The notes under the pieces are model-generated. The model was not told where the DNA came from. It made no database searches and saw only the letters and a program-made list of their open reading frames with translations. Positions 3,245-55,097 of a stretch of 64,000 nt of DNA are shown one piece after another. Numbering within the stretch: position 1 is the first letter of the stretch; each line of letters opens with the position of its first letter. Source of the DNA: Myxococcota bacterium. Lineage in GTDB: Bacteria > Myxococcota > JAJVIH01. Where the stretch lies: the NCBI GenBank assembly GCA_022072125.1, contig JAJVIH010000004.1, positions 1-64,000 on the forward strand. Direction: 5' to 3'. Made by a program: the position numbers and the translations under genes.

Positions 3245-5542
3245 ATGCTCACCAGGGAATTTGAAGAGACCGTCAAACGTGCATACGCGGATGCCAGCCA
3301 GCGGGGACACGAATACCTGACCCTGGAGCATTTGTTGCTGGCCATTCTCGATGATCCCGTGGGCAAGGAAATCCTCAACGCCTGCGGCGCCGATATCGAG
3401 GAACTGCGGAAGGACCTGAAGGACTTCCTGTCCAACAAGCTGAAAGCGCTTCCGGACCGGCGGGACGCGGGGATGAATGAAACCGTCTCGTTCAACCGGG
3501 TGATCCAGCGCGCGGCCCAGCATGTCGCCTCCAGCGGCAAGGACAAGATTGACGCGGGCAATGTGCTGGCGGCCATGTACCGCGAACCGGAATCCCACGC
3601 GGTGTATCTGCTTCAGCGGCAGGGGGTGACCCGCTTCGATGTGATCAATTTCATTTCGCACGGCATTTCCAAGGTGAAGGCGCCGGGCGTTGGCAAGATG
3701 CGTATCCCCACAGGCGAGGACGGCGAGACCGTCGCCGCCGATCCGCTGGCGGAGTACACGACCGAACTGGTGGCGCGGGCGGCGGCGGGGAAAGTTGATC
3801 CGCTGGTGGGCCGTGACAAGGAACTGGAGCGCATCATCCAGGTGCTGGCGCGCCGCCGGAAAAACAATCCGCTGCTGCTGGGGGATCCCGGCGTGGGCAA
3901 AACCGCGCTGGCGGAAGGGCTGGCGGCGATGATTCAGCAGGGCAAGGCGCCGCCTTTTCTGGCCAACGCGAAAATCCATTCCCTGGATTTGGGCGCCCTG
4001 CTGGCGGGGACCCGCTACCGCGGCGATTTCGAGGAGCGCGTCAAGGCGGTGCTCGACGCCCTGAAAGGCAAGAAAAACGCCATCCTGTTCATTGATGAAA
4101 TTCACATGATTGTGGGGGCGGGCGCCACCACCGGCGGCACCATGGATGCGGCGAACCTGCTCAAGCCCATGTTGGCGTCCGGCGAATTGCGCTGCATCGG
4201 ATCCACCACGCACAAGGATTATAAATCCTCGTTCGAGAAGGATCGCGCGCTGGCCCGGCGCTTTCAGACCATCGAGATACCCGAGCCATCCGTCGAGGAT
4301 GCGGTGCGGATTCTCAATGGCGTCAAGACCGGATACGAGCAGCACCACGGCGTGCGCTTCACCAAGGCGAGCATCCAGGCCGCCGCGGCGCTGTCCCACA
4401 AGTACATCAATGAGCGCCACCTGCCTGACAAGGCGATTGATGTGATTGACGAGGCGGGAGCGCTCTTCCGCATGCGCCATCCGGAGGCGTCGAACAATCC
4501 GGATGACAACCCGATCTATCCGGAGGCGATCGAGAAGGTGGTGTCATCCATCTCCCGCGTGCCGGTGAAAAGCGTCACCACCGATGATCGTGATCGCCTG
4601 AAGAACCTGGAGCCGGAACTCAAGCGTTATATCTTCGGGCAGGATGAAGCGGTCGAAAAAATCGTGGGGGCGATCAAACTTTCCCGTTCGGGGTTGGGGC
4701 ATCCGGAAAAGCCGGTGGGCAGTTTCCTGTTTTCGGGTCCCACCGGCGTGGGCAAGACCGAACTGGCGCGCAAGCTGGCGGCCATTCTGGGCGTGGAACT
4801 GCTGCGTTATGACATGACCGAGTACATGGAGAAACACGCGGTATCGCGGCTGATTGGCGCGCCTCCGGGCTATGTGGGCTTTGATCAGGGGGGATTGCTG
4901 ACCGACGCCATCCGCAAACATCCCCACGCCGTGGTGATTCTCGATGAAATCGAGAAGGCCCATGGAGATATCTACAACATCCTGCTTCAGGTCATGGACC
5001 ACGCCACCCTTACCGACAACATGGGGCGCAAGGCGGATTTCCGCAATGTCATCCTCATCATGACCACCAACGCCGGCGCCCACGACATGGTGCAGTCGCG
5101 CATTGGTTTTGGCGGCGGGGCGGTCTCCAGCGATGGCAAGGAAACCATCGAGCGCCTGTTCACGCCGGAGTTCCGCAACCGCCTTGACGCCTGGGTCGCC
5201 TTCAAGGCGCTGAGTCCGGAGACCATCGCCAGGGTGGTGGAAAAATTCGTGGACGAACTCGACGCCCAACTCGCCGAGAAGCATGTCCACCTGGAACTGG
5301 ACGGGGCCGCCCGCGAATGGCTGGCCCAACATGGGTATGATCCCCTGTATGGAGCGCGGCCGATGGCGCGGGTGATCCAGAAGGAAATCAAGCTGCCCAT
5401 CGCCAATGAAATTCTGTTCGGGGCGTTGGTCAACGGCGGTCAGGTTCATGTCTCCGCGCGTGACGGCGAACTGACCTTCCGCTACGAAGCCGCTCCGCCG
5501 CGCACGCCCGAAGACGAGGAGTCGCCCACGCTGGTTGGCTGA
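3245..5542 (+). CDS. clpA: ATP-dependent Clp protease ATP-binding subunit ClpA
   Basis: A 765-residue double AAA+ unfoldase, the normal ClpA length. It has an N-terminal double Clp repeat (residues 1-145, the ClpS-binding domain). The first AAA+ module has Walker [10 protein letters not shown] near residue 215 and Walker B LFIDEIH. There is no ClpB-type long middle domain. The second module has Walker [10 protein letters not shown] near residue 498 and Walker [11 protein letters not shown]. The segment SRIGFGGG near residue 619 is the IGF-type loop that docks on ClpP, so it is expected to feed a ClpP peptidase; clpP itself is not in the window. The 3' end overlaps the convergent gene on the other strand by 61 bases. 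Confidence 0.96.
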
Positions 5543-6462
5543 ACGATGGATCCGGTATTCCGCTGACGCAAGCGGAGAATCAACGCCATCCACCCATGGG
5601 CGGCGATGGCGGCGCCCAGCGCGCCCGCAAGGGCGATCAATACATGGGTCAGCAAGGCGCCAGGCCGCGCCTGCTGGAGCAGGAACAGGAACCCCTCGAA
5701 CAACAAATAGAGGTGGGGGTAGAGCAAAAAACTCCATCCCCACAGCCGGGCCATGCCGTGCGCGTTGGGCCAGTTGGGCAGGCACAGGAGGGAAGACAGG
5801 CTCAGCGGCAACAGCGCCAGCGAGAACAACGCCAGTGCTGGATATTGCCCCTTACCAAATTCCATCAGGAAGCGATGCCGCCACAGCAGGATGGTCTCGC
5901 CGCCATCGCCCGTGGGGATGGCGGCGGCGTGTATCGCCAGCATCGCCAGCGCGATCAGCAACACCAGTCCCCGCGCCAGGTTTGAGGCGGGATTCGCCGA
6001 TCGCCACAGCATCAACAGGCCCGCGGCCGCGCACCCCGCGAATACCAGGGGAGGCGTTGGCATGGGCTCCAGCAACAGGTCTTCGCGGATCGCCTGGGCG
6101 CTGGCGAGAATAAGCAATCCGCAGGCCAGGGCTGTCACGCACGCGGCGGCCCGGGGGAGTTCTGGATTTTGTGGGGACGCGGATGGCCGCGGCCGCCATA
6201 ATCCTGCCCGCGCCAGGGCGAATATCGCCGCCAGCGCGCCGCCCCACATCATTCCAAAAGAGAATGTGGTCTCTGGATGGGCGGACAGGACGGCGGGTAT
6301 CCAGTCGAAACGCTCCCCCGCAAGGCCAAAGAGCCCAACCGGGCGTGCGGACCAGGGCGGCAAGGCCAGAGCGAGCAGGGCCAGGGCCATCCACCCCGCC
6401 TGACGGAGCAGGCGGGCGATGCGCCCGCGCGCTGCTTCCGGATCATCCCAGTCCATGAACAA
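5482..6462 (-). CDS. Polytopic membrane protein of unknown function
   Basis: A 326-residue, very hydrophobic protein with roughly eight membrane-spanning segments, an Ala/Leu-rich composition and no motif that I recognise. The preferred start is TTG at 6462, preceded by a GGAG ribosome site at good spacing; an ATG two codons later lacks one. It lies 60 bases downstream of the GMC oxidoreductase gene on the same strand and may be the last gene of that unit. Its 3' end overlaps the end of clpA by 61 bases in convergent orientation, which is unusual but plausible. Function cannot be assigned. Confidence 0.65.
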   Translation of the reverse strand: MFMDWDDPEAARGRIARLLRQAGWMALALLALALPPWSARPVGLFGLAGERFDWIPAVLSAHPETTFSFGMMWGGALAAIFALARAGLWRPRPSASPQNPELPRAAACVTALACGLLILASAQAIREDLLLEPMPTPPLVFAGCAAAGLLMLWRSANPASNLARGLVLLIALAMLAIHAAAIPTGDGGETILLWRHRFLMEFGKGQYPALALFSLALLPLSLSSLLCLPNWPNAHGMARLWGWSFLLYPHLYLLFEGFLFLLQQARPGALLTHVLIALAGALGAAIAAHGWMALILRLRQRNTGSIVQPTSVGDSSSSGVRGGAAS

Positions 6463-6522
6463 GATGGCGCTCCGCGGGCCGCGCCCCGTGCGCGTGAAGG
6501 CGAAAGCCCCGGGAGAATTGTT

Positions 6523-40853: not shown

Positions 40854-41378
40854 GCCGCCCCTTTGGTGAGTGACTGAAAAACATACGCCAATCCGGCGCT
40901 CCAGGTTACAATTTTCTGAACCATTTTGATTTACAAGGAAAACTTTTCCATGGAAACATCCACAGGCGGAGCAGGCCGGGGAGCGCCCCGGAGGGATTGA
41001 TGGCGGCTGAGGTCCGCGGGCCCACGGTTTTCACCAGTTCAAAGCAGGCGCGGGCGCCGTGAAAGACTTCAATGAGTTTTGGTTCCGGGTTTGTCAGCCA
41101 GGGGCATTCCCCATGCTGCTGGTATGTATCCTTCTCTCCTCTCTCCCGCGATCGAGCTTGTTGCTCGGCCAACCACATGGGGTCAGGCGGAGGCCCATTG
41201 TTCGTATGGGGTCAACCCGTCTGGGCGCGGCGCCGTTCATCGTCAAGTCATCTCCTCGCGCCTGTCCGGATTCAAGGCGGATTCGCTTTCGTCCACACCG
41301 GCATGACGGCATGCGTCCACCTGTCGTATGGTGGAACCGGCAGGATGGTGTATGGTTGGAATGCAAGAGGTGCAATCC
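40854..41378. other. Divergent intergenic region between the flavoprotein gene and the Tad locus
   Basis: A 525-base stretch without a supportable gene. The first 100 bases are clearly AT-richer than their surroundings and probably hold promoters. A nine-base direct repeat ATGGGGTCA occurs at 41177-41185 and 41206-41214. The few short open frames have no family character and no ribosome site. Confidence 0.45.
40937..40956. promoter_or_regulatory. Overlapping inverted repeats, possible operator
   Basis: The 20 bases GGAAAACTTTTCCATGGAAA contain two overlapping dyads: GGAAAA-C-TTTTCC (40937-40949) and the perfect palindrome TTTCCATGGAAA (40945-40956). Together they give three alternating GGAAA/TTTCC half-sites in the AT-rich part of the divergent region, about 90 bases upstream of the flavoprotein start. 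A regulator binding site is inferred. Confidence 0.4.
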
Positions 41379-42248
41379 ATGTGGAGCATGCTCAAAACGG
41401 CGGCGTTGCGGTTTCACCGGGATGAAGATGGCCAGGCCATCGTCGAGTCAGCCATCATCCTGCCGCTGATGATCTTCACGGTGTTGGGGGTCATTCAGTT
41501 GACCATGATCCAGCACGCCAAGGTCATGAATGAATACGCCGCCTATCAGGCCGCCCGCGCGGGCATTGTGTGGAACGGCGACCAGAACCGCATGACCAAC
41601 GCCGCCCTGATTTCCCTTGTGCCCACCATGGGCCGAGCGGATAACGCCAACGCGATTGTCACCTTCCTGAAAGGCAAGCTGATCAACGAAGTCACCGGCG
41701 CGGTGGATAAAAGCATCGCCAGCCTGACCGGTTTCATCAATGGCGTGCTGGGGAAGATTGGAATCCCGGGGATTTCCGGCATTCCCGATATCTCCATTGT
41801 GCGGGTAAGCGTGTTCAACCCCCAGGCCAAGGACCTGAAGGGCAAGAATGTTGATTTTGACGATCCCAAAAACCAGAAGCTGACCCGCCTGGAAATCCAG
41901 TGCCGCTACCTCTATAACCTGCGTATTCCCTTTGCGAACTGGGCCATCCATACCATTTGGCTGGCGACCCAGGCCAAGGTGTTGCTGCGCAGCGAAAAAT
42001 GGGTTCCCGGGTCCACCCTGATGACCAGCAAAACCGTGGAAGGGCGGGCCCTGGACGCCCGGCTGACCGCCAAGCTGGGAACCCTGACCCTGATGAACCT
42101 GTGGCGGGGCAACGCGGAAAAGAACCTGCACATCGTTCTTTATATGATGGGCAAGATGGGCGGCTATTATTTCATGCCCATGTATTCGACCTATTCCATG
42201 CGGATGCAGTCCAATCCGTATGAAAAAGCGGTGAAGAAGGGCTGGTGA
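41379..42248 (+). CDS. TadE-like pseudopilin of the Tad pilus locus
   Basis: A 289-residue protein. Near residue 15 it has the TadE signature DEDGQAIVESAIILPLMIF, with the hydrophobic pilin-like helix following and QAARAGIV after it. The first third thus looks like TadE/TadF, but the rest (about 230 residues) is an unassigned extracytoplasmic domain, so the protein is much longer than classical TadE (about 150-200). The start at 41379 has an AGAGGTG site seven bases upstream. It is the first gene of the Tad run and overlaps the next gene by four bases. Confidence 0.8.
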   Translation: MWSMLKTAALRFHRDEDGQAIVESAIILPLMIFTVLGVIQLTMIQHAKVMNEYAAYQAARAGIVWNGDQNRMTNAALISLVPTMGRADNANAIVTFLKGKLINEVTGAVDKSIASLTGFINGVLGKIGIPGISGIPDISIVRVSVFNPQAKDLKGKNVDFDDPKNQKLTRLEIQCRYLYNLRIPFANWAIHTIWLATQAKVLLRSEKWVPGSTLMTSKTVEGRALDARLTAKLGTLTLMNLWRGNAEKNLHIVLYMMGKMGGYYFMPMYSTYSMRMQSNPYEKAVKKGW

Positions 42249-43759
42249 CGCGGATGCTGGTGAGGCTCATCAAGGCGACGCGGAGCAATGACGGCCAGTC
42301 CCTGGTGCTGGCGGCCCTGGCGATGCTGGTGTTGACTGTTGGCGTGCTGACAACCGTCAACATTGGTCACAGCGTGCATGAACGCATCCGCCTGCAGAAC
42401 AACGCGGATGCGGGCGCCTATTCCATCGCCACCACGGAAGCCCGGTTGTTCAATTATGTCGCCTTCACCAACCGGGCCATCGTCTCCAATTATGTGATGA
42501 TGACCGCCCTGGCCTCCATTATCAGCTATCTGGCGCTGATGGAGACCCAGTTCGCCGCCGTTTACATCATGGCGATGAACGCGGGGTGCGCGCTCATCCT
42601 GACCATCAAGGGGGCGCCCGCCGGGAAAAAAATACAGTCCATGGCCAACTCCTTGATTGAACCCATCCGGAAAATGTTCCGGCAACTGGTGGATCAATTA
42701 AAAGGACCGGTCGGCAAGCTGATTGAGGCGCTTCAGAAAAACGCGGCCGCCCACGGCATGCAACAAAAGCTGAACGCGGTTGTGACTGCCGGGCAGGTGG
42801 GCATGGGGATATTCCGGAATATCATTCAGAAACAGGACCCCAAACTGAAGCTGACCGGTTTTCCGCAAATCGCCACCACGGTGTTCAACATGACCGAACT
42901 GCTGGGCGCGGTGGATTTCCGGTCCAAAAGCCGGAGGGAACACAAGCAGGAACTGGTCGAATTGATCAACGCCTCCAGAAAAAGCGAGAACAATTTCATC
43001 ACCAAGCGGAACAGCATTGTCCAACCCAGCCTGTTTGGCGGGTTGTCGGCCCTCGCCAAGTTTTTGTCCTTTACTTTTCCCACCGACGGGCAAACCAAGG
43101 TGCTGGCCAACCAGAACCCCCGGAACACCCGGAACACCGGCAACCCCGACAGCTATATGGCCACCGGCGATTCAATGGTGGCGAATGACCGGGTTCCCCT
43201 GTTTCACGTGGCGTTTGGCAATACCCAGGACGCCGTGAACGTCCAATACAGCCAGACGGCGCCCAAGATATGCCGTTTCCAGAGCTACCGGAGCATCATC
43301 TGCTTCAGGTATGGCCGGTGGCGCTGCGAGAGCGACAACGCCTTCAAATGGCCGGGGATGGTGGATTATACCGCCCTCAAGCCCAAGGGCGACTCCAGTT
43401 TCCGCCAGCCCGAGGTTTTTGTCGCCCTGAACAAGGACCCCAAGGATCTGGAGCAGGTTTTCACCCTCAAGTTCAAATACGATGGCGGGGCCGCCGGACA
43501 GGCCGATATTGACTTCAACACCGGCCGCAAGGGCATGCTGGGCACCGGTTTGCTCAAGGGGCTGAACGCCTGGACACGCGGACAGGTCTACTACCACCGC
43601 CCGGGCGCCTGGCAGGAGCCGCCCAATATGTTCAATCCGCACTGGCGCGGACGGCTGGCCCCCATTGGCCAGTTGCTGCAAACCCCGCCCAGTTCCGGGG
43701 GCGGATCGGTGATGCCGGTTATCCGCAACTTCTTGTCGGATAACCTGATTACCCACTGA
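42245..43759 (+). CDS. Tad-like pilus assembly protein (TadG-type N-terminus)
   Basis: A 504-residue protein. Near residue 17 it has GQSLVLAALAMLVLTVG followed by HSVHERIRLQNNADAGAYSIA, which is the N-terminal helix of putative Flp pilus-assembly TadG-like proteins. The remaining 430 residues lack a recognised domain, and the von Willebrand A-type domain of some TadG proteins is not evident. Two start choices exist: GTG at 42245, overlapping the previous stop, or ATG at 42254. It probably sits in the inner membrane with a large periplasmic part. Confidence 0.78.
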   Translation: MTRMLVRLIKATRSNDGQSLVLAALAMLVLTVGVLTTVNIGHSVHERIRLQNNADAGAYSIATTEARLFNYVAFTNRAIVSNYVMMTALASIISYLALMETQFAAVYIMAMNAGCALILTIKGAPAGKKIQSMANSLIEPIRKMFRQLVDQLKGPVGKLIEALQKNAAAHGMQQKLNAVVTAGQVGMGIFRNIIQKQDPKLKLTGFPQIATTVFNMTELLGAVDFRSKSRREHKQELVELINASRKSENNFITKRNSIVQPSLFGGLSALAKFLSFTFPTDGQTKVLANQNPRNTRNTGNPDSYMATGDSMVANDRVPLFHVAFGNTQDAVNVQYSQTAPKICRFQSYRSIICFRYGRWRCESDNAFKWPGMVDYTALKPKGDSSFRQPEVFVALNKDPKDLEQVFTLKFKYDGGAAGQADIDFNTGRKGMLGTGLLKGLNAWTRGQVYYHRPGAWQEPPNMFNPHWRGRLAPIGQLLQTPPSSGGGSVMPVIRNFLSDNLITH

Positions 43760-43765
43760 GGCGGC

Positions 43766-44773
43766 ATGAACATCCGGTTTTCACAACTCCGCCACCGCAG
43801 GTTCTGGAAACGCGGCGCCGCCGTGACCGAGTTCGCCATCGTCTCCGTGGTGCTGGTCTCCATCATCATGTGGAGCCATTTTTTCTACGACCTGGTGGAG
43901 GCCAAGCTCAAAACCCAGGAAATGGCCCGGTACGCCGTGTGGGAATTCGCCGGATACCAGCTTTCCGACCACCTCAAAACCAAGCACAACGACCTGTACA
44001 AGAACGCTTCGGACGCCATCAAAAAGGACACGGAGGATCGCTTCAAGGACCTGATTTCCACCCAGGCCCCCGGCCAGACCGTGAAGGATGGCGAAAAGCG
44101 TTTCACACTCGATGTCGGCCAGGTGTCGAGCAATCTTTCCAAACAATCCGACTTTATCACGTCCATCATGAACCGTTGGAAATTCAATAACATCGGTTCT
44201 GTAACCTCCAATGTTTCCACAAGAGTCACCAACCTCAACAAGGTGCTCCCCCGGACCTTTCTGGAAGGTTCGAAGGGCTGGTTCAAGGCTCGCCACCAGT
44301 CCAAGCCTTCGTATAATTTCCGCGAGACCGCCATGCTGCTGGTGGACCCTTGGGCCCTGAACGAGGGGCCATCGGTGGTTTTTGGAACGGGCAACTACGG
44401 CAAGACCGAGCTGGTCGCCGTGGTGGGCCGGATGGATGGCGTGACGGGCGCCCTGGGCGCCAGCGAACTCAGGCAGGTCACCAATATTCTCGGCAAGGTC
44501 ACCCGGGTGATGATTGGCATTGATCCCCTGGCGACCCGGGTTGCATCGCAGCCCTATGGCGATTCCAGGAACGTGAAGGGGCAGCCGCCGCTGCTGTCCT
44601 ATCCCATTGATCGGGGCGCCAAGAATTTCCATACCATCAATTTCTGCACTTCAAACTCGCAGTATTCCGGAAAGGGCAAATGCACCGGCGGAACCTCCGC
44701 CGCCTTTTACAAACGCGGGCCCTACTTCATGGGCTGCAAGAAGGACCAGGAATACGTCTGCGATTACAAATGA
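43766..44773 (+). CDS. Second TadE-like protein
   Basis: A 335-residue protein. A basic N-terminus (RHRRFWKRG) is followed by AAVTEFAIVSVVLVSIIMW, a TadE-like helix with the conserved Glu, and then DLVEAKLKTQEMARYAVWE. The remainder is an unassigned extracytoplasmic part ending in a short Cys-containing segment (CKKDQEYVCDYK). A GAGG site lies before the ATG. Its last four bases overlap the next gene. It is probably a minor pseudopilin or a pilus-assembly component; three such proteins in a row is more than in the minimal Tad locus. Confidence 0.76.
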   Translation: MNIRFSQLRHRRFWKRGAAVTEFAIVSVVLVSIIMWSHFFYDLVEAKLKTQEMARYAVWEFAGYQLSDHLKTKHNDLYKNASDAIKKDTEDRFKDLISTQAPGQTVKDGEKRFTLDVGQVSSNLSKQSDFITSIMNRWKFNNIGSVTSNVSTRVTNLNKVLPRTFLEGSKGWFKARHQSKPSYNFRETAMLLVDPWALNEGPSVVFGTGNYGKTELVAVVGRMDGVTGALGASELRQVTNILGKVTRVMIGIDPLATRVASQPYGDSRNVKGQPPLLSYPIDRGAKNFHTINFCTSNSQYSGKGKCTGGTSAAFYKRGPYFMGCKKDQEYVCDYK

Positions 44774-45582
44774 AACTCCTCAACTGGACATACCGGCTTT
44801 TGTTGACCGCTCTGGTGCTGGTTTCCGCCGGGATGCTGGGCTTTTACCGCTCCGGAGGAAAAGACGCCTTGGCGGATGATGTCCAGCCCACGCCCCAGTC
44901 CAGCTTCATTCCGTATTCCGAGCCGTTGTCCGATTTGCCCCGCTATCCGGGAGCCCATGTGGCGCCGGTGGGGGTGAGCGCCGGCATGGGCGGCGTCCCC
45001 ATGCAGGTGGAGTATTTTGTCCACCGCGACGGAGCGGACAAAATCGCCGATTTCTACCGCGGCGTCTGGCGATCCCAGGGGTTGTCGCCCATGTCGCAGC
45101 GCCCGGGGGATGGAACTATCATCATCAGCGCCATGGACCCGGTGGAAAAAATGCTCAAGGTGACCACCGTCTCTCCCAACGGCGATGGCACGACGGATGT
45201 TTTCGCGGCCGTGGTGGAGGTTTCCGGACGATCAGTCAAGGATTACCAGAAGCTCAGGCAACAGGAACTGGGCGGCGCCACCCTGGGAGACGCCATCCAT
45301 GGGCTGATCAATACAGAGGCATGGAAGAACCAGGTCTTGACGTCATTCCGGGATGGACCGCTCAGCGCCGTCCGCGCCGGGGTGCTCCAGGAATTGCAGG
45401 CCGCCGGCTGGAGCAATTCCGGCGGCGCCCAATCCCTGGATACCCAGGAAGCCGGAGTGCATACCGCGTGGTTTGTGAAGGGCGGGGATCGCGTCAGGAT
45501 TTCCCTGTCTGAACTGGCCCCGGCCGGGGTCACCCTGATCATGGTGCATGATGCGCGCGATGTGGATATCCAGGGCCGCTGA
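44770..45582 (+). CDS. Unassigned envelope protein of the Tad locus
   Basis: A 270-residue protein. An N-terminal signal or anchor (LLLTALVLVSAGMLGF) is followed by an extracytoplasmic domain. Distinct parts are LPRYPGAHVAPVG, VEYFVHRDGADKIADFYRG and WRSQGLSPMSQR, and the C-terminus is VHDARDVDIQGR. I do not recognise the family; the PGA...YF..DGADKIADFYR arrangement suggests a small alpha/beta domain seen in other secretion-related loci. The ATG overlaps the previous stop by four bases, so it belongs to the same operon. Confidence 0.7.
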   Translation: MKLLNWTYRLLLTALVLVSAGMLGFYRSGGKDALADDVQPTPQSSFIPYSEPLSDLPRYPGAHVAPVGVSAGMGGVPMQVEYFVHRDGADKIADFYRGVWRSQGLSPMSQRPGDGTIIISAMDPVEKMLKVTTVSPNGDGTTDVFAAVVEVSGRSVKDYQKLRQQELGGATLGDAIHGLINTEAWKNQVLTSFRDGPLSAVRAGVLQELQAAGWSNSGGAQSLDTQEAGVHTAWFVKGGDRVRISLSELAPAGVTLIMVHDARDVDIQGR

Positions 45583-45592
45583 CCGGCGGCGC

Positions 45593-45781
45593 ATGTGGAA
45601 AAGACTGCTGGGACGCAAAGGCGTCCGGCGCGGCCAGGCCATGTCCGAATATATCATCATGACTTTCGCGCTGCTGTTCGGGGTGGGGTTGATCGGATCG
45701 AAATTTCTGCCCACCATGCTGAAAGCCTATCAAATATATATTGATGGCTTCATGATGATTCTGAGCCTGCCTTTCCCCTGA
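45593..45781 (+). CDS. flp: Flp-type pilin precursor
   Basis: A 62-residue protein. A short basic leader (MWKRLLGRKGVRR) is followed by GQAMSEY, which fits the G/x4-E-Y cleavage and recognition pattern of Flp prepilins (cleavage after Gly). A hydrophobic helix (IIMTFALLFGVGLIGS) follows. Size and composition fit the major pilin of Tad pili. The ATG at 45593 is chosen to give this compact leader; an in-frame start further upstream would overlap the preceding gene. No prepilin peptidase gene is in the window. Confidence 0.78.
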   Translation: MWKRLLGRKGVRRGQAMSEYIIMTFALLFGVGLIGSKFLPTMLKAYQIYIDGFMMILSLPFP

Positions 45782-45788
45782 TTCATCC

Positions 45789-46499
45789 GTGAAATGGGTT
45801 CGCATTGGCGTCTACGCCCTCCTCGCCGCCGCGGGGTTGTGGATGGTCCGGGAGCCGGTGCTTCGCGCCTTTTGGCTGAGCCTGGGGGAAACCGTCTATT
45901 ACCCGGCGCTGCCCAATCCTTTGTGGACGGCGGTGGCCGTGGTTTTTCTGGTTTATCTGGGGGTCATGACCTGGAAGGTCTCGGGCGGGAAACCAGTTCC
46001 CACCCCCTGGACGGCGGTTTTTCTGGCGGCGTTTGTACTGGCCGCCGCCGGACAAGCGTTTTTCCGGGGAAGTGGATCGCCGCCATCCTGGTCATTGCTG
46101 GAAGATGCGCCTCCCCATGTGCAGGTGGAAGCCGCCATGGACATGGTGTGCCGGGGCGGCGAAATCCGGGCGGCGAAATCCGGGGTGATGCCTTCCAGCG
46201 AAGCGGATTATGAGTCCATCCTGCGGGAGGGAAAATTTCCTCCCCTGTTGAATTACCGGAAAAGATGGGAGCGGCTCCCGCTCTCCCTTGTGCTGATCAG
46301 AAACCAGAATACTCCACCCGACCGATACCCGGAAGGGAGCGGTCCGGGTACAGTGGTGATTGGGATATCATCCTCCGCTGATCGAATCTGGGTCAGCGGT
46401 GTGGGGATGAACTCCTATCCGCGCGGTCCAACCGGGTGGATCAAGGACAGCAGGGGCGGCCAGGCGATTCTGGCCTGCCGGGCCCCCAGCAGGCGGTAG
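45789..46499 (+). CDS. Unassigned membrane protein of the Tad locus
   Basis: A 236-residue protein with a GTG start eight bases after the pilin stop and no clear ribosome site. It has a signal-like N-terminus and two further hydrophobic segments (VFLVYLGVMTW and FLAAFVLAAAGQAFF), then a soluble C-terminal part of about 135 residues containing a Cys (DMVCRGGEI) and a Gly/Ser-rich region. No family recognised. Position and orientation suggest a pilus-locus function, but that is inference. Confidence 0.68.
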   Translation: MKWVRIGVYALLAAAGLWMVREPVLRAFWLSLGETVYYPALPNPLWTAVAVVFLVYLGVMTWKVSGGKPVPTPWTAVFLAAFVLAAAGQAFFRGSGSPPSWSLLEDAPPHVQVEAAMDMVCRGGEIRAAKSGVMPSSEADYESILREGKFPPLLNYRKRWERLPLSLVLIRNQNTPPDRYPEGSGPGTVVIGISSSADRIWVSGVGMNSYPRGPTGWIKDSRGGQAILACRAPSRR

Positions 46500-46520
46500 G
46501 GATGTGGTGTTTGCATTGAA

Positions 46521-47345
46521 ATGAACAGGGGTGCTGCAAATTTGGCGGGTGCATGGATGGCGGCGCTTTCCATGTGGGTGGTTTTGGCGGCAGGGGCGTG
46601 GGCCGCCCCCCCCCGGCAACCCGGCCAGCCGCTGACCCCGGGCGTGGATGTCATTCCAGGTTACAATGTACAGGCCAGGGTAGGGGAGTGGGTGGAGTAT
46701 TATATTATTGATGGCGCGCAGGTCCCCCCGGGATTGCTCAAGGGAAGCTCCGCTTCCCCGGGGGCTGGCGTATTGCCCCCCGGCGTGGCCGGTTCCGTGA
46801 AATACGCCTGGTTCAAGGCCGGGCCGGAAGACAAGGGCGCCCAGTGGATGGAGATCGTCACCCGCGATGGGGAGGCCGTTCAGGCCATCCGCCTGCTTTT
46901 CGCCGGCGGGAAAGACAACCCGGATCGTATCCTGAGAATGATCTCGCAGATGGGAAACGATCCGCCCATGGAAATGCCCGCGGACCTCATCGCCGCGGCG
47001 GAGAATATGGAGGGCGGTGTTTGCGAACCGGGCGAGCCCTGCGCCCAGGAGCCGGTGGGCAAACCTGTCATCGGTCCGGTGACCACCCTGAAGACCCCTG
47101 CGGGGGTGTTCAGGGTGCGCAAACATACCTGGCCCTTGCCCGGGAAACAGAGCCGCATCACCTGGGTGGCGGAAAATCCGAAATCCCTGGTGGTGCAGTT
47201 CCAGGACATGGAAAATCGCCTATACGTGCTGGCGGGTCATGGCGACAAATGCCAGCCTTTCATCACCGCCAAACCGCGTCCGCTGTTTATTCCCCAATTG
47301 CCCGCTCCGGAAGACCCGGACGGCCAGGGAGAACCGCCGCAATGA
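46521..47345 (+). CDS. Unassigned secreted protein of the Tad locus
   Basis: A 274-residue protein with a signal peptide (WMAALSMWVVLAAGAWA, cut near residue 28). The mature part contains VGEWVEYYIIDG, a repeated basic/acidic beta-like pattern, a CEPGEPC pair that may form a disulfide, and a Pro-rich C-terminus (LPAPEDPDGQGEPPQ). I do not recognise the family. It lies between the unassigned membrane protein and cpaB and is probably periplasmic or outer-membrane associated. Confidence 0.7.
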   Translation: MNRGAANLAGAWMAALSMWVVLAAGAWAAPPRQPGQPLTPGVDVIPGYNVQARVGEWVEYYIIDGAQVPPGLLKGSSASPGAGVLPPGVAGSVKYAWFKAGPEDKGAQWMEIVTRDGEAVQAIRLLFAGGKDNPDRILRMISQMGNDPPMEMPADLIAAAENMEGGVCEPGEPCAQEPVGKPVIGPVTTLKTPAGVFRVRKHTWPLPGKQSRITWVAENPKSLVVQFQDMENRLYVLAGHGDKCQPFITAKPRPLFIPQLPAPEDPDGQGEPPQ

Positions 47346-47409: not shown

Positions 47410-48195
47410 ATGTTGAAAGGAAGACTCCCCCTCATCCTTGCCGTTGCTTTTGGTCTGGCGGCCGGCGCGCTCGCCTGGGTCAGCATCAAGCAACGCTTCG
47501 CCGAGGTTCGCAAGGGATGGGATCTCGTCGAGATCATCGTCGCGGATCAGGATATCGAGGAAGGCGAGGAAATCACCAACGATGTGCTGTCCAAACGCAA
47601 GGTGCCGGAGTTGTTCGCCACCCGTTCGGTGTTGCGCCCGTCCCAACTGGATCGAGACGTGTACGGCCGCACCCTGGTGATGGCGCTGAAGAAAGGCGAG
47701 CCCCTGACCTGGGCGCATTTCCAGACCAACCGCGGCTTCGAGCGCCTGTCCAGCGTGGTGGACAAAACCCTGCGCGCCGTCTCCATCCGCGTCAACAACG
47801 AAAGCAGCGTGGGCGGATTCGTGCGGCCCAACGACCAGGTGGATATCCTCGCCACCATGCGCGATCCCCAGTCGGGCGACATGGTGACGGTCACCGTGCT
47901 GCAGAAGGTCAACGTGCTGGCCACCGGCAACCTGACCTACGCATCCAACCTCACCATGATCAAGGAGGAAGACAAAAACTATTCCTCGGTCACGGTGCAG
48001 GTTCTGCCGGTGGAGGCGGAAATGCTGGTTCTCGCCCAGGAACTGGGAACCATCTATCTGACCCTGCGCAACGCGGAGGACCCCGAGGCCATGGAGTCCC
48101 AGCGCAGCCATACCAATATGAATACGCTGTTCACCGGCGACCGCGGCGCCCTGACCCAGAAACGCCAGGGCATCCAGGTCATTCGCGGCAAATAG
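47410..48195 (+). CDS. cpaB: Flp pilus assembly protein CpaB
   Basis: A 261-residue protein. A membrane anchor (LPLILAVAFGLAAGALAW) is followed by an SAF-type domain (VEIIVADQDIEEGEEIT), then LRAVSIRVNNESSVGGFVRPNDQVDILAT, the RcpC/CpaB-like segment. A later beta-rich part is SVTVQVLPVEAEMLVLAQE. CpaB (RcpC) interacts with the Tad secretin. It is placed upstream of tadB and tadC, a common order. Here the secretin gene that normally follows is absent. Confidence 0.92.
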   Translation: MLKGRLPLILAVAFGLAAGALAWVSIKQRFAEVRKGWDLVEIIVADQDIEEGEEITNDVLSKRKVPELFATRSVLRPSQLDRDVYGRTLVMALKKGEPLTWAHFQTNRGFERLSSVVDKTLRAVSIRVNNESSVGGFVRPNDQVDILATMRDPQSGDMVTVTVLQKVNVLATGNLTYASNLTMIKEEDKNYSSVTVQVLPVEAEMLVLAQELGTIYLTLRNAEDPEAMESQRSHTNMNTLFTGDRGALTQKRQGIQVIRGK

Positions 48196-48216: not shown

Positions 48217-49098
48217 ATGTTGGAGTCCGATTTTCTCAAATATTTGATGCTGCCGGCCGGGGAGCTGATCTTCCTGTTCACGGCTGGCGCGGTCTTTTTC
48301 TCGGTGCTGATGATTTACAACATCCTGAACCGGGCGGTGGAGGAGTACCAGAAGAAATACGTGGTCAAATCGGTGGACCAGTTTTCGGAAATGTTTCTCT
48401 TCATTGATGCGCGCCAGCTTTTCATGCTGCAGATCGCCATCACCGCGCTGGCCATGCTGTTGGGCATTCTCTTCCTCGGCCTGTTTTCGATGGTAATTCT
48501 GGGGATTTTCGGGTGGTTTTTCCCCCAGATCGTGGTTCAGTACTACCGCAAGTTCCGCATCAAGAAGTTTGAAACCCAGCTTGTGGACGCCCTGATCGCC
48601 ATGTCGAACGCCTTCAAGGCGGGGTTGACCATGCAGCAGGCCATGGAAGGCGTGGCGCGGGAGGCGGGCCCGCCGCTCTCCCAGGAGTTCATGCTGACCC
48701 TCAATGAGATCAAACTGGGCGTTACCATGGAGGACGCGCTGGTCAACATGGCGAAGCGGGTGGGCAGCGATGACCTGGAACTGACGGTCACCTCCACCAA
48801 TATCGCCCGCAGCCTGGGCGGCAACATGGCGGAGATGTTTGACATCATTTCCACCACCATCCGCGAACGGTTCCGTCTGGAGGGCAAGATTGATTCCATC
48901 ACCAGCCAGGGCAAGCTACAGGGCTGGATTGTCGGCATGATGCCGCTCGCCCTGTGGCTGGTGTTGCAATACATGCGCCCGGACCTGACAGAGCCCATGA
49001 CCAAACATCTCTTCGGGTATTTGATGTTCGGCGCCATCGCCGTGCTGGAATTTGTCGGCATGATGTGGATTCGCCGCATCGTCAACGTGGATATCTAA
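48217..49098 (+). CDS. tadB: Tad secretion platform protein TadB
   Basis: A 293-residue type II secretion F-domain protein. It has three or four membrane segments. The cytoplasmic F domain has LVDALIAMSNAFKAGLTMQQAMEGVARE, with LGVTMEDALVNMAKR and SLGGNMAEMFDIISTTIRERFRLEGKI. It forms the inner-membrane platform of the pilus with TadC. A GGGAG ribosome site lies before the ATG. Three bases separate its stop from the tadC ATG. Confidence 0.93.
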   Translation: MLESDFLKYLMLPAGELIFLFTAGAVFFSVLMIYNILNRAVEEYQKKYVVKSVDQFSEMFLFIDARQLFMLQIAITALAMLLGILFLGLFSMVILGIFGWFFPQIVVQYYRKFRIKKFETQLVDALIAMSNAFKAGLTMQQAMEGVAREAGPPLSQEFMLTLNEIKLGVTMEDALVNMAKRVGSDDLELTVTSTNIARSLGGNMAEMFDIISTTIRERFRLEGKIDSITSQGKLQGWIVGMMPLALWLVLQYMRPDLTEPMTKHLFGYLMFGAIAVLEFVGMMWIRRIVNVDI

Positions 49099-49101
49099 GG
49101 C

Positions 49102-49992
49102 ATGGATGAGTTTCTGAGGAACTTCTGGTCCAGCATGGGGCTGTTTCTTTCGGCCGGATGCGCCGCGGCCGCCAGCGGCATGATCGTTATGTACCTGTCC
49201 AACCTGGCGGCGGCGGCGAAGGAGCAAAAGACCAACGACAAGGATTTCGTCCTCGCCATGCGCAGCATCGCCCTGCGGCGTCTGGGGCCCTACACACGGT
49301 TTTTTCTCAAGCCGGGCGCGCTGGAAAAAATTCAGGCCAAAATCACCGAGGCGGGCGATCCCGGCGAGTTGCGCGCCGAGGAATTCGCGGCGTTCCAGTT
49401 GTTGTCCGCCTTGGTGTTCGGCCCCTTCGGCATGTTGATGCTGGGGGTGCTGGATGTCTCCCTGCTGTTTTCCCCGCTGTTTTTTGTCTTCGGTTTTTTC
49501 TTCCCCCATATCTGGCTGCGCGATCAGATTCTCTCCCGCAAACTCAACATCGCGCGGGCGCTGCCTTATTCCATTGACCTGCTGACCTTGTCGGTGGAGG
49601 CCGGGCTGGACTTCACCGGCGCCGTGGGCAAGGTGGTGGAAAAGGGCCGCGAGGGCCCGCTGCGCGATGAGTTCCGGTTGATGCTCAACCAGCTCCGTCT
49701 GGGAAAAACCCGCGAGGAGGCGCTGAAAATCATGGCGGAGCGCGTGCAACTCCAGCCGCTGACCAATTTCATCCAGGCCCTGATTCAGGCCGACCGCATG
49801 GGCACCAGCCTGGGCAAGGTTCTGCGCATCCAGTCCACCCAGATGCGCGTGGACCGCACGCAGCGCGCGGAAAAGCTGGCCAACGAGGCGCCGGTCAAGA
49901 TGCTGTTTCCCCTGATTTTCTGCATCTTTCCAACGGTTTTTCTGGTGCTGTTTGGTCCCATTCTGTTCCAGTACATGACCCAGAATAACTAG
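49102..49992 (+). CDS. tadC: Tad secretion platform protein TadC
   Basis: A 296-residue type II secretion F-domain protein, paralogous to TadB. It shows ALPYSIDLLTLSVEAGLDFTGA, LRLGKTREEALKIMAERV and ALIQADRMGTSLGKVLRIQS, with membrane segments at the N-terminus, centre and C-terminus. It begins three bases after tadB and is followed 16 bases later by the FHA gene, so these three are probably co-transcribed. Confidence 0.93.
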   Translation: MDEFLRNFWSSMGLFLSAGCAAAASGMIVMYLSNLAAAAKEQKTNDKDFVLAMRSIALRRLGPYTRFFLKPGALEKIQAKITEAGDPGELRAEEFAAFQLLSALVFGPFGMLMLGVLDVSLLFSPLFFVFGFFFPHIWLRDQILSRKLNIARALPYSIDLLTLSVEAGLDFTGAVGKVVEKGREGPLRDEFRLMLNQLRLGKTREEALKIMAERVQLQPLTNFIQALIQADRMGTSLGKVLRIQSTQMRVDRTQRAEKLANEAPVKMLFPLIFCIFPTVFLVLFGPILFQYMTQNN

Positions 49993-50008: not shown

Positions 50009-51448
50009 ATGGGGTTTTCGATCCGGATTATTGAAGGGCCGCAACGGGGCGAGGAATATTTCTTCGCCGACGCGGAGGTTGTCGCCGGGCGCGAGGAGTC
50101 CAACAGCTTCTGGCTGAAGGACAAACAGTGTTCGCGGAAGCATTTCAGCATCACCATCGAGGATGGCCGCCATGTGCTCCGCGATCTGGGATCCGCCAAT
50201 GGCACCCTGCTGAACGGCCAGCCCGCCGAGGCCGAATACCTGGAAACCGGGGATGAAATCCGCGCCGGCGCCACCGCCATGCAATTCACCGCGCTGGATT
50301 CCAGTTCCACCGACAAGCGGGTTCTGCAGGCGGCGGATCAGCAGACCTCGCGCACCAATGTCCGGCGGCTGCAGGGCCCGGGCAGCTATCCCGGAAGCGG
50401 CAATGGCGCTCTGCCCAAACAGACCGACGAGGTGACCCTGCACCCGGGACCGGGCAAACTTGGCGAGGCCCGGGCGAAGCTTCCCAGCGCGGCGCAAATC
50501 CGCGAGCGGTTGATTCACGGGTTCGCGGGTTTGTCCTTCCGGATGAAAGCGGCCATTGTGCTTTCATTCTCCGCGATACTGGCGGGATTCCTTGGCTGGA
50601 TCCTGTACTCCATCCTGAATCCGGAAAGCGGATGGACGGATCAGTCCAACAGGAGTTTTGATTACAGCGCCATCAAACCGGGAACGCGCTATGGCTATTC
50701 CCACTCGGGCAAGGTGGATGTCCAGTGCAAGGCCCAGTGCCAATTCAGGTTCCCTTTCACCGGCGGCGTGGTCACCGTGGTCTACGACATTGGCTCCAGC
50801 GATCAGTTGGGCAAGGGAGATATCGAAATTCTCATCAACGATCACGTCATCGGTCCAGCCGCCGCCGCCTGGGGAAAATGGGAGAGTTGCAATTCCATTG
50901 ATATCCCCCGTGACAAACTACTGAAAGATTCCGAAAATCTGCTGGTGTTCCGCAACACGACCATGGACGAGGAAACGGGAGAGGCCAAGCCCTGGGGGCT
51001 GAAAAATCTGAAGATCATTGAAGACGCCATTCCCAACCCGTCCGAGAGCCGTGCGGATGAAAAATTCCGCGTCGCCAAGGATCGCTACAACGCCCGCAAA
51101 CGGGAGGAAAAAGCCTTGTTTCTGGCCTGGAAAGACCTGCGGGAAGCCAAGCTCTACCTGGAAGGCATGGAATCCAAACCGCTGTTGTATTCCGAGGTCA
51201 CGTCCCTTTTGCGCACGGTGACCGACGAATTGGAAAAGAAGGGCGCGGAACTCTTCTTTGAATACAAGATGTACAGGAGCGGTCAGGACGATCTGCAGTC
51301 GGCCAAGGCCAGACTGGAAACCCTGCTCAAATATTTCCCCGAACCAAACAGTTGCCGCCATCGCCTTGCCAAGGACGAGTTGATCGAATTGAAGGAGGAA
51401 ATGGACATGATGGCCGAGGATGAGACTGCGGCCAGCGGCGGGGAATAG
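50009..51448 (+). CDS. FHA-domain membrane protein with a C-terminal helical region
   Basis: A 479-residue protein. Residues 1-95 are an FHA domain: VVAGREESN, SRKHFSITIEDG and LRDLGSANGTLLNG carry the Arg, Ser, His and Asn contacts with phosphothreonine. A linker of about 75 residues precedes one membrane helix (IVLSFSAILAGFLGWILYSIL, about 173-195). The outer part has a beta-sandwich-like segment and then a charged helical region with TPR-like character (residues 345-470). FHA proteins are common in Tad and type VI loci of myxobacteria, where they sense Ser/Thr phosphorylation. A cytoplasmic FHA and an extracytoplasmic C-terminus are inferred. Confidence 0.83.
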   Translation: MGFSIRIIEGPQRGEEYFFADAEVVAGREESNSFWLKDKQCSRKHFSITIEDGRHVLRDLGSANGTLLNGQPAEAEYLETGDEIRAGATAMQFTALDSSSTDKRVLQAADQQTSRTNVRRLQGPGSYPGSGNGALPKQTDEVTLHPGPGKLGEARAKLPSAAQIRERLIHGFAGLSFRMKAAIVLSFSAILAGFLGWILYSILNPESGWTDQSNRSFDYSAIKPGTRYGYSHSGKVDVQCKAQCQFRFPFTGGVVTVVYDIGSSDQLGKGDIEILINDHVIGPAAAAWGKWESCNSIDIPRDKLLKDSENLLVFRNTTMDEETGEAKPWGLKNLKIIEDAIPNPSESRADEKFRVAKDRYNARKREEKALFLAWKDLREAKLYLEGMESKPLLYSEVTSLLRTVTDELEKKGAELFFEYKMYRSGQDDLQSAKARLETLLKYFPEPNSCRHRLAKDELIELKEEMDMMAEDETAASGGE

Positions 51449-52862: not shown

Positions 52863-55097
52863 ATGTCGAATAACCCGCTCATTACCAGGCTGCTCCAGGA
52901 CAAACTGATTGGGCAGGAGCAAATCAAGGAGCTGGTGAACATCATCCGCAAGACGGGCATGGATGTGGATTCCGCCCTGGCGGACCTGCGTTATCCCGGC
53001 GAGCACGATATTCTTCACTATCTGTCCTCCAAGTATGGATGCGAAACCCTGACCATCAACCAACTCTCGGAAATCAATCCGCCGCAACAAGTGCGCGGCA
53101 TGATTCCCAAACAGTTGGCGTATGACCACCATATTGTTCCGGTGGAGTTCGACAAACGGAACTGGGTGCTCAAGGTGGTGACCACCAAGCCCAGGAATCC
53201 GGAAGCGGAAAGCGCGGCGAAAATCGCCTCCAGCGTGGGCAAGGTGATCATGGTGCTGGCGGTGCCTACCGCCGTGGAAGCCATGCTGCGCCGGGTATAC
53301 CAGAACGACGTGGGCGCCTTCAGCACGCTCAACCGCTCGTTGTCCAGCGACACCGCCTGGTTCATCAAGGAATACCGCGCCATCAACAACCTGAGCGATG
53401 ACGACACCGCGCCCATGGAGACCGGGAACGAGGTCGTGGGAGAAATGTCCCATGAGCCGGCGCCGGGTTCCGGACGGCCGCGCACCAACCGGCCGCCTGT
53501 TTACCAGCAGGAATATGACGAGGCCCTGTTTGGCGTCGCCGCCGCGGATTTGCGGGCGTCCCAGCAGTCCTCCGATGAACCGTTGATCCTGGAAGAGGTC
53601 GCCTCGCCCGCGAAAAAACCCCTGTTGCCGCTGGAAGTGGTCCGTCCGGCCACCGCTCAGCAGGCGGTCGTGGTGGTTTCCCGCCCGCCCAGCACGTCGC
53701 GCGCCACGGTCGAGCAGGCTCCCCTGGTGGAGGATGTTCCCGATCCCAACCAGGGTGTGGACGAGGTCTATCTGCAAACCGTGGCGACCCTGATCCGCCA
53801 TTTTGAAGAACTGGATCCGCTGACCAAGGGACATTCGGACAACGTGGCGCTGATGTGCATGTCCATCGCCGAAAAGATGGAAATGCCCAATGAACAGGTA
53901 TCCTACCTGCGGCTGGCGGCGGCGCTGCACGATCTCGGCAAAAGCGTGGATCATATCACGCTGATGTCCTTGCAGACCGTTCCGGAGCACAAAACCATGG
54001 CCCGCGAGGTGCTCAACGCCCCGCTTGATATCATGGGCGACGTGCCCCTGCCGGCGGAAGTCGTGCAGATACTCAATTCCATTTTTGAAAACTACGACGG
54101 CAGCGGCATCCCGACGGGCCGGGCGGGCGATCGCATTCCCTTGGGGGGGCGGATCCTCTCGGCGGTGGATTCATTTTTCGGACTGGTTGAGCGTCCGCCG
54201 AAATCAGAGACTCCGGTTTCTCCCGACCAGGCCCTGAAGGTGCTGAAATCCTGGTCTGGCAAGTTGTTCGACCCCTTGGTGATTGGTCATCTGGAAGAGG
54301 AAATCAGCCACAACGAAGCCCGCGAGCGTCCTCCCGTCCGCTATGTGGTGTTGTTGGCGGTGGGCGATGACAATCTGGCGCACGAACTGGAAGAATTTCT
54401 GCCGGAAGAGGGCGTGGCCACCGAGCGGGTGCGTTCCATCGAGGAAGTGGAGAACGTGCTGAAATCCAATTCTTATTCAGGCGTGATCGCATCCTGCGAT
54501 TTGGCGGGTGAAGACGGCATTCTGATCTCCTCGATCCTCCAGGAGAGCGAGAAAACCGCGGACTGGCCGGTGGTGTTTCTGGGGCCCGCCACTGACCCCA
54601 TGCTGATCCAGAGGGCTTTCGCCGCCGGAGCGGCGGAATTCATCACGACGCCGCTGGATTTGTCCGTGGCCGTGCAGAAGATGGTGGAAGTTCTGAAGGA
54701 TCGCGGCAAGGAAATGACCAACGAAACCGCGAAAACGGTGATGCTGGATCCTTCCCAATCGCGGAATGTCGCCCTGACCGGCGAACTGGAGAACATGGGA
54801 TTGCCCAAGCTTTTGCAAATCCTGATGCGCGATCGGCAATCCGGGCAGCTTTTGATAGAGCGCGACGGCGAAACCGCGGAAATCTACCTCGAAGAGGGCA
54901 AGGTTGTTCACGCCATCTACGGCGACTTGCGCGGGGTGGAAGCCTTTGAATCCATCGTGGGATGGGATCACGGAACCTTCAACGTGGACACCAATTTCCT
55001 GATCCTGGAGCGGGCGATTGACATTCCGACGGAACGCCTGATCAACGAATCCCTCAAACGCTACAACGCCCGGCGCCAGGACCTTTCCACATCATAG
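52863..55097 (+). CDS. Four-module regulator: MshEN, HD-GYP-like, receiver-like and PATAN (DUF4388)
   Basis: A 744-residue protein with no membrane segment. Residues 1-150 resemble a GspE/MshE N-terminal domain (SNNPLITRLLQDKLIGQEQI, IPKQLAYDHHIVPV). A Pro/Ala-rich linker leads to an HD domain (HSDNVALMCMSIAEKM; AALHDLGKSVDH near residue 355; ENYDGSGIPTGRAGDRIPLG near residue 410). The canonical HHERxDGxGYP reads NYDGSGIP, so the GYP triad is altered. A receiver-like fold follows (about 490-610) and lacks the expected phospho-Asp context. The last 110 residues are a PATAN domain (LTGELENMGLPKLLQILM ... SGQLLIERDG). MshEN and HD-GYP both suggest c-di-GMP involvement. Confidence 0.82.
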   Translation: MSNNPLITRLLQDKLIGQEQIKELVNIIRKTGMDVDSALADLRYPGEHDILHYLSSKYGCETLTINQLSEINPPQQVRGMIPKQLAYDHHIVPVEFDKRNWVLKVVTTKPRNPEAESAAKIASSVGKVIMVLAVPTAVEAMLRRVYQNDVGAFSTLNRSLSSDTAWFIKEYRAINNLSDDDTAPMETGNEVVGEMSHEPAPGSGRPRTNRPPVYQQEYDEALFGVAAADLRASQQSSDEPLILEEVASPAKKPLLPLEVVRPATAQQAVVVVSRPPSTSRATVEQAPLVEDVPDPNQGVDEVYLQTVATLIRHFEELDPLTKGHSDNVALMCMSIAEKMEMPNEQVSYLRLAAALHDLGKSVDHITLMSLQTVPEHKTMAREVLNAPLDIMGDVPLPAEVVQILNSIFENYDGSGIPTGRAGDRIPLGGRILSAVDSFFGLVERPPKSETPVSPDQALKVLKSWSGKLFDPLVIGHLEEEISHNEARERPPVRYVVLLAVGDDNLAHELEEFLPEEGVATERVRSIEEVENVLKSNSYSGVIASCDLAGEDGILISSILQESEKTADWPVVFLGPATDPMLIQRAFAAGAAEFITTPLDLSVAVQKMVEVLKDRGKEMTNETAKTVMLDPSQSRNVALTGELENMGLPKLLQILMRDRQSGQLLIERDGETAEIYLEEGKVVHAIYGDLRGVEAFESIVGWDHGTFNVDTNFLILERAIDIPTERLINESLKRYNARRQDLSTS

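Follow-up and report, generated by a model that had tools for sequence, protein, structure and literature searches.

Three uncharacterised genes beside a KilK-type pilin gene in the Kil-type Tad locus of a deep-branching member of the Myxococcota, among them a companion of pilus tip modules

The genes at the locus

The DNA stretch analysed here, further called the window, comprises positions 1 to 64,000 of contig JAJVIH010000004.1 from a Myxococcota bacterium (assembly GCA_022072125.1). It carries a Tad pilus locus in which three open reading frames (ORFs), ORF1 (44770..45582), ORF2 (45789..46499) and ORF3 (46521..47345), surround the gene of a Flp-like small pilin of the KilK type (45593..45781). 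All four genes lie on the forward strand in a tightly packed run. ORF1 encodes 270 amino acids from an ATG start that overlaps the stop codon of the upstream TadF-like gene (ATGA), ORF2 encodes 236 amino acids from a GTG start and ORF3 274 amino acids from an ATG start. The Flp-like product, encoded between ORF1 and ORF2, is 62 amino acids long and bears a prepilin motif (RRGQAMSEYIIM; RRGQAMSEY). An earlier interpretation made from the letters of the DNA (the sequence-only reading) had described the three products as envelope proteins with signal or anchor sequences and without a recognised family, placed around a Flp pilin. The reading frames are all present, and hydropathy profiles show N-terminal hydrophobic segments. 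Neither Pfam nor NCBIfam yields a match for ORF1-3 at E ≤ 0.01, and a PDB sequence search with the three family alignments gives no credible match. The tight run around the pilin gene is likewise found, and ORF1 also immediately follows genes of the TadE, TadG and TadF types. As the flanked pilin corresponds to KilK, an adapter pilin in Myxococcus xanthus, the proteins are better described as placed around a tip module.

ORF1 is an anchored or exported, predicted periplasmic protein with a single N-terminal hydrophobic segment (residues 7-25). Its structural model, with a mean predicted local distance difference test score (pLDDT) of 69.7, consists of an N-terminal hydrophobic helix followed by two beta-alpha-beta-beta-beta domains at approximately residues 76-150 and 187-261. 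A Foldseek comparison of this model against the PDB returned no match with E below the cut-off of 1e-3. There is a weak fold resemblance to the envelope proteins DcrB and PA1624 (Foldseek probability 0.95-1.00); however, with template modelling (TM) scores of 0.25-0.42, E-values above 1e-3 and no sequence relation found, membership of either family is not claimed. Other candidates were judged spurious, namely ribosomal protein S8 of the 30S subunit, which is the best PDB sequence match (E = 0.0018), and RnlA and KICSTOR, which appeared as fold matches with TM-scores of about 0.2. All three proteins were also considered as minor pilins and rejected as such: inspection of the sequences by eye reveals no G/XXXXE prepilin motif before the N-terminal hydrophobic helix, and the model of ORF1 is not pilin-like.

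A Kil-type Tad system divided over two loci

The three genes are embedded in a longer series of Tad genes, all on the forward strand. The conserved tip module opens with a TadE-like minor pilin in the position of KilM in the Myxococcus xanthus order (41328..42248; PF07811 TadE, 3.3e-10). It continues with a large TadG-like, KilN-like minor pilin (42245..43759; PF13400 Tad, 3e-05; 4.7e-145 against a KilN/TadG profile of which this protein is itself one row) and a TadF-like, KilL-like minor pilin (43766..44773), whose match to PF16964 TadF (0.0013) is weak and below the cut-off and which is the third module gene in homologous loci. Downstream of ORF3 follow CpaB/RcpC (KilB; 47410..48195; PF16976, 1.1e-24; TIGR03177, 6.4e-52) and the platform proteins TadB (48217..49098; PF00482, 1.5e-15; 61% identity to Myxococcaceae locus copies) and TadC (49102..49992; PF00482, 5.1e-18), which represent the KilG/KilH pair. 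An FHA-domain protein of the Kil cluster comes next (50009..51448; PF00498, 5.3e-15); FHA genes also follow TadC in M. xanthus. The TadE/TadF/TadG-like tip module thus stands beside CpaB, TadB and TadC, as expected of a Kil locus.

The remainder of the Tad core is encoded elsewhere in the genome, with the secretin and ATPase on contig C4 of the assembly and the window on C3; as the assembly consists of 78 contigs, the two loci may lie at any distance from each other. The ATPase (669 amino acids) is an N-terminal FHA fusion with FHA at residues 23-87 and T2SSE at 317-595, and is adjoined by a protein with two FHA domains. A further trait of Kil systems is a short secretin that lacks N0; the secretin here has 475 amino acids and its Pfam matches are T2SS-T3SS_pil_N and Secretin alone, the N0 domain not being modelled. 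Seef et al. (PMC8460266), who describe the clusters of the Kil system of M. xanthus, report for it just such a divided Tad system in which the ATPase is fused to FHA. The window genome shows the same split core and fused ATPase as well as the hallmarks of Kil cluster I, and the window locus is a Kil-type Tad locus. It matches kil cluster II (mxan_4648-4661), as TadE/TadG/TadF, ORF1, Flp, ORF2/ORF3, CpaB, TadB, TadC and FHA are common to both and the secretin and FHA-fused ATPase occupy a second locus, as reported for Kil (PMC8460266).

In the locus of M. xanthus strain AM003 (L077), the order is TadE, TadG, TadF, ORF1 (269 amino acids), ORF3 (269 amino acids), Flp (75 amino acids), ORF2 (248 amino acids), a gene for 243 amino acids, CpaB, TadB, TadC and two FHA genes. 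The paper by Herrou et al. 2025 (PMC12075869) gives mxan_4660/4659/4658 as KilM4/KilN4/KilL4 and mxan_4655 as KilK. Because two genes separate mxan_4658 from mxan_4655 and one follows KilK, ORF1, ORF3 and ORF2 correspond by position to mxan_4657, mxan_4656 and mxan_4654, respectively. No mention of these three locus tags was found in the literature searched, and the main text of PMC12075869, searched by locus tag and read in part, makes none of a fourth tip-set gene. The sequence-only reading was right that the proteins lack a family, but as genes they are not unknown: their equivalents lie, so far uncharacterised, in kil cluster II, which is part of an already published system. Differences from M. 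xanthus exist as well. ORF3 comes after ORF2 in the window and not between ORF1 and the Flp gene, and identity to the M. xanthus counterparts is approximately 24-26% for ORF1 and ORF3 and 16% for ORF2.

The window pilin aligns by profile and position with the 75-residue KilK of AM003. According to PMC12075869, KilK serves M. xanthus as an adapter pilin, while the gene of the major pilin, KilP, is located elsewhere; for this reason, the small pilin of the window may be an adapter rather than a major pilin. The gene flanked by the three ORFs is therefore pilin-like, as the sequence-only reading held, but need not encode the major pilin. A genome-wide PF04964 scan, which was not aimed at KilP itself, revealed no second Flp_Fap pilin above chance, and no counterpart of the M. 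xanthus KilP was identified, so that the small pilin of the window may be an adapter or the major pilin.

ORF1 as companion of tip modules

Loci were collected by searching a sequence collection of 84,980 species with a TadB profile, without ORF1 as bait. This TadB-anchored sample comprises 57 loci in which CpaB is preceded by 5 kb of sequence or more, many of them from closely related Myxococcaceae, and hence does not amount to 57 independent observations. TadG-TadF is present in 20 of these loci and ORF1 is the next gene in all 20: in 19 by gene call and in one (L127) from the raw reading frames, as gene calling had missed an ORF1 of 262 amino acids. None of the 37 CpaB loci without TadG contains ORF1, ORF2 or ORF3. 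The median spacing between TadF and ORF1 in this sample is -4 nucleotides. In a second, ORF1-anchored sample, which is biased because ORF1 itself served as bait, the order TadE-TadG-TadF-ORF1 is constant except in incomplete loci. By its position directly downstream of TadE-TadG-TadF and its two domains, the window ORF1 belongs to this family.

Across 195 Myxococcota genomes, which form the base of all genome-wide counts, ORF1 occurs in 138 and a KilN-type TadG in 140. Among the matches listed, 115 ORF1 places are comparable, having a TadG on the same contig; in 105 of them, this TadG lies upstream at a distance of 1014-1319 bp and has the same orientation. The remaining 10 are put down to a TadG outside the matches listed; L029, L038 and L229 were checked and all have a TadG. 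Homologues of each of the three families recur in the same gene neighbourhood in many Myxococcota genomes, and their conservation therefore exceeds chance. In the M. xanthus genome, a broad profile finds exactly four ORF1 places (L077, L170, L171 and L172), each directly after TadE-TadG-TadF, and four tips are known in this species. In L170, ORF1 is followed by a Flp of 59 amino acids, the same length as PMC12075869 reports for KilO of the tip3 cluster. The KilLMN tip complexes with KilK/KilO adapters set out there resemble the TadE/F/G-like minor pilins and KilK-like Flp beside ORF1; the difference is that ORF1 trails all four tip sets in the M. xanthus genome examined, while the main text, as searched and read in part, is silent on a fourth gene. 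Other Myxococcaceae likewise carry tip sets at several dispersed loci, each with ORF1. In contrast to the four sets of M. xanthus, the window genome has one ORF1 and one KilN-type TadG.

ORF1 also diverges jointly with its neighbours. Over 51 modules, the correlation of its patristic distances is r = 0.89 with TadF, 0.87 with TadG and 0.93 with TadE, which matches the correlations of the tip pilins among themselves (r = 0.87-0.94).

Two other kinds of loci were encountered. Orphan KilN/TadG-like genes of about 690 amino acids occur in Myxococcus, twice with no TadE, TadF or ORF1 nearby (L227, G163:C1:7843000-7862000, and L228, G147:C1:748000-767000) and a further time at G164:C362:2959-5034. 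A second class of Myxococcaceae CpaB-TadB-TadC loci (L059, L088, L091, L126 and similar) has neither TadE/TadG/TadF nor ORF1-3; the conserved genes upstream are different ones (in L059, their products have about 345, 351, 137, 199 and 480 amino acids).

ORF2 and ORF3 are more local than ORF1

ORF2 has two to three predicted transmembrane segments; three are seen in 19 of 31 members of its family. Its C-terminal domain is predicted to be extracytoplasmic and, judged by eye, may be GspG-like. With several such segments, it would fit only as an inner-membrane component. Homologues follow Flp directly in L040 and L077 and closely in L033, L024 and others, and ORF2 occurs mainly in KilK-type clusters.

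ORF3 is an exported, beta-rich protein with a GxWVEY motif, one N-terminal signal-like segment (residues 8-26) and an AWA|AP-type site thereafter. Its model is beta-rich and poor (pLDDT 55.4), and the fold search is uninformative for this reason. A C-terminal stretch of the family members L085 and L040 resembles DUF3108 (PF11306; E = 0.0025 and 0.18), yet these scores are below the curated cut-off and the window ORF3 has no match. With a profile based on called genes, relatives of ORF3 are detected in 92 of the 195 genomes, and 97 of the 108 strong places are within 2.5 kb of ORF1. Among the other 11, six were inspected: four adjoin tip or CpaB genes, and the remaining two, which come from a single genome, show no tip gene in the region viewed. 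In 36 of the 97 ORF1-linked places, ORF3 is found past the Flp gene on the other strand, which argues against strict operon membership. Beyond the tip-cluster Flp of L031 and comparable loci of Myxococcus, there is a pair of ORF3-like genes (10167-11575 in L031), one on each strand, the second being a shorter paralogue of 188-231 amino acids.

These linkages bear on one alternative, that generic envelope proteins hitchhike in a conserved operon without taking part in the pilus. More distant relatives of ORF1 that have a single domain, and in some cases are lipoproteins, are found away from Tad genes and, like the two ORF3 matches without tip genes, fit this explanation. The sequence-only reading had named homologues without Tad genes nearby as evidence against its proposal; they exist in these two forms, but not for the two-domain ORF1. 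The domain itself is thus general, and the doubled, tip-linked form is special. The 20/20 versus 0/37 association of ORF1, the dispersed, duplicated tip sets that each have their own ORF1, and the linkage of ORF3 to ORF1 speak against hitchhiking, and we consider it the least probable of the explanations. The same associations bear out the earlier claim that the proteins are part of the Tad system.

A probable dedicated partner of the pilus tip

We consider it probable, at roughly 60%, that the three genes are accessory parts of the Kil-type Tad pilus, with ORF1 as a dedicated periplasmic partner of the tip complex. ORF1 would share an operon with the KilL/KilM/KilN-type tip genes, may be translationally coupled to TadF, and is predicted to be exported or anchored in the inner membrane. 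In the periplasm, it would bind the tip minor pilins and most likely hold, fold or load its cognate set before the tip primes the pilus, each tip type presumably being served by one ORF1 paralogue. From the inner membrane, ORF2 may assist the assembly platform or the adapter step, and ORF3 may act as an exported beta-rich accessory (chaperone or carrier) paired with the KilK-type adapter. The two predicted alpha/beta domains of ORF1 and its lack of a pilin motif favour a periplasmic partner or an assembly factor for the tip over a minor pilin. Hence, of the tip, minor pilin and assembly components that the sequence-only reading had put forward, the minor pilin is unlikely, while a role at the tip may hold for ORF1.

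In the main rival explanation, ORF1 is itself part of the tip, as a structural subunit or as cargo; it would be exported along with the minor pilins and then be on display, or be delivered, at the end of the pilus. In Vibrio cholerae, TcpF is docked by TcpB, which offers a model for such cargo. One cognate copy per tip set and a divergence as fast as that of the tip pilins would suit a subunit or cargo, as would the cleavable-looking signal (PAAA|EQ, SRA|EQ) that replaces a permanent anchor in M. xanthus and relatives. The window and several other lineages, however, have an anchor-type hydrophobic N-terminal helix, the pilin motif is missing, and the published four-tip KilL/M/N models (PMC12075869) are complete without ORF1. 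We regard this rival as possible but doubtful. Self-protection, in which ORF1 shields the envelope of the predator from its own tip, draws on the same distribution (one exported protein per tip set, following the tip type) and on Tip4, for which PMC12075869 reports a separate toxic activity, either carried by this tip or associated with it. Yet tips are not known to harm the cell that makes them, ORF1 is found with every tip type, including those without toxic activity, and nothing connects its arrangement of two domains with known immunity proteins, making this explanation improbable.

Several observations weigh against a dedicated tip partner. Binding, localisation and mutant phenotype of ORF1 are putative. 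Its fold match is weak, the most plausible PDB matches being PA1624 (TM about 0.31) and DcrB (TMt 0.42), and the ORF3 model is poor (pLDDT 55). The locus L174 carries two tandem tip sets (5488-6498 and neighbours), one without its own ORF1 and the adjacent one with it, and a few genomes have a TadG match but no ORF1 match. Many tip modules lack ORF2 and ORF3. Linked genes tend to co-diverge by common descent, so that distance correlation alone does not prove interaction. Finally, the mxan numbers were deduced from gene order and not taken from an annotated record.

Myxobacteria use the Kil pilus to detect prey and to kill it, and the prey range is believed to depend on which of its swappable tips is mounted; in PMC12075869, the authors call the tip-selection step unclear. 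As an unnamed, conserved fourth gene behind the four M. xanthus tip sets and in 138 of 195 genomes, ORF1 is a concrete candidate for tip choice. More speculatively, and in our estimation unlikely, it could be the first representative of a novel class of assembly factors, with one cognate protein for each interchangeable tip, that choose which KilLMN tip loads on the Kil pilus; such a class would fill the missing step. New here are the finding that ORF1 constantly accompanies tip modules and the placement of the divergent window locus among Kil loci.

Lineage and further observations

Loci found with the TadB profile all derive from Myxococcota or delta-proteobacterial records, except for one contig labelled Comamonas. 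This contig (L073, BNCN01000007.1), titled Comamonas sp. KCTC 72670, bears a Myxococcus-type Kil cluster II and is probably mislabelled or contaminated. The source genome of the window, for which no relative nearer than the same phylum was found in the genome sample, is a deep-branching member of the Myxococcota with a Kil-type Tad locus, and a Kil-type system with its accessory genes is thereby placed in a lineage without a close relative in that sample. Two genes past the Kil-type FHA gene, the window encodes a protein with MshEN, HD_5, response-regulator and DUF4388 domains (52863-55097), which possibly serves pilus-linked signalling.

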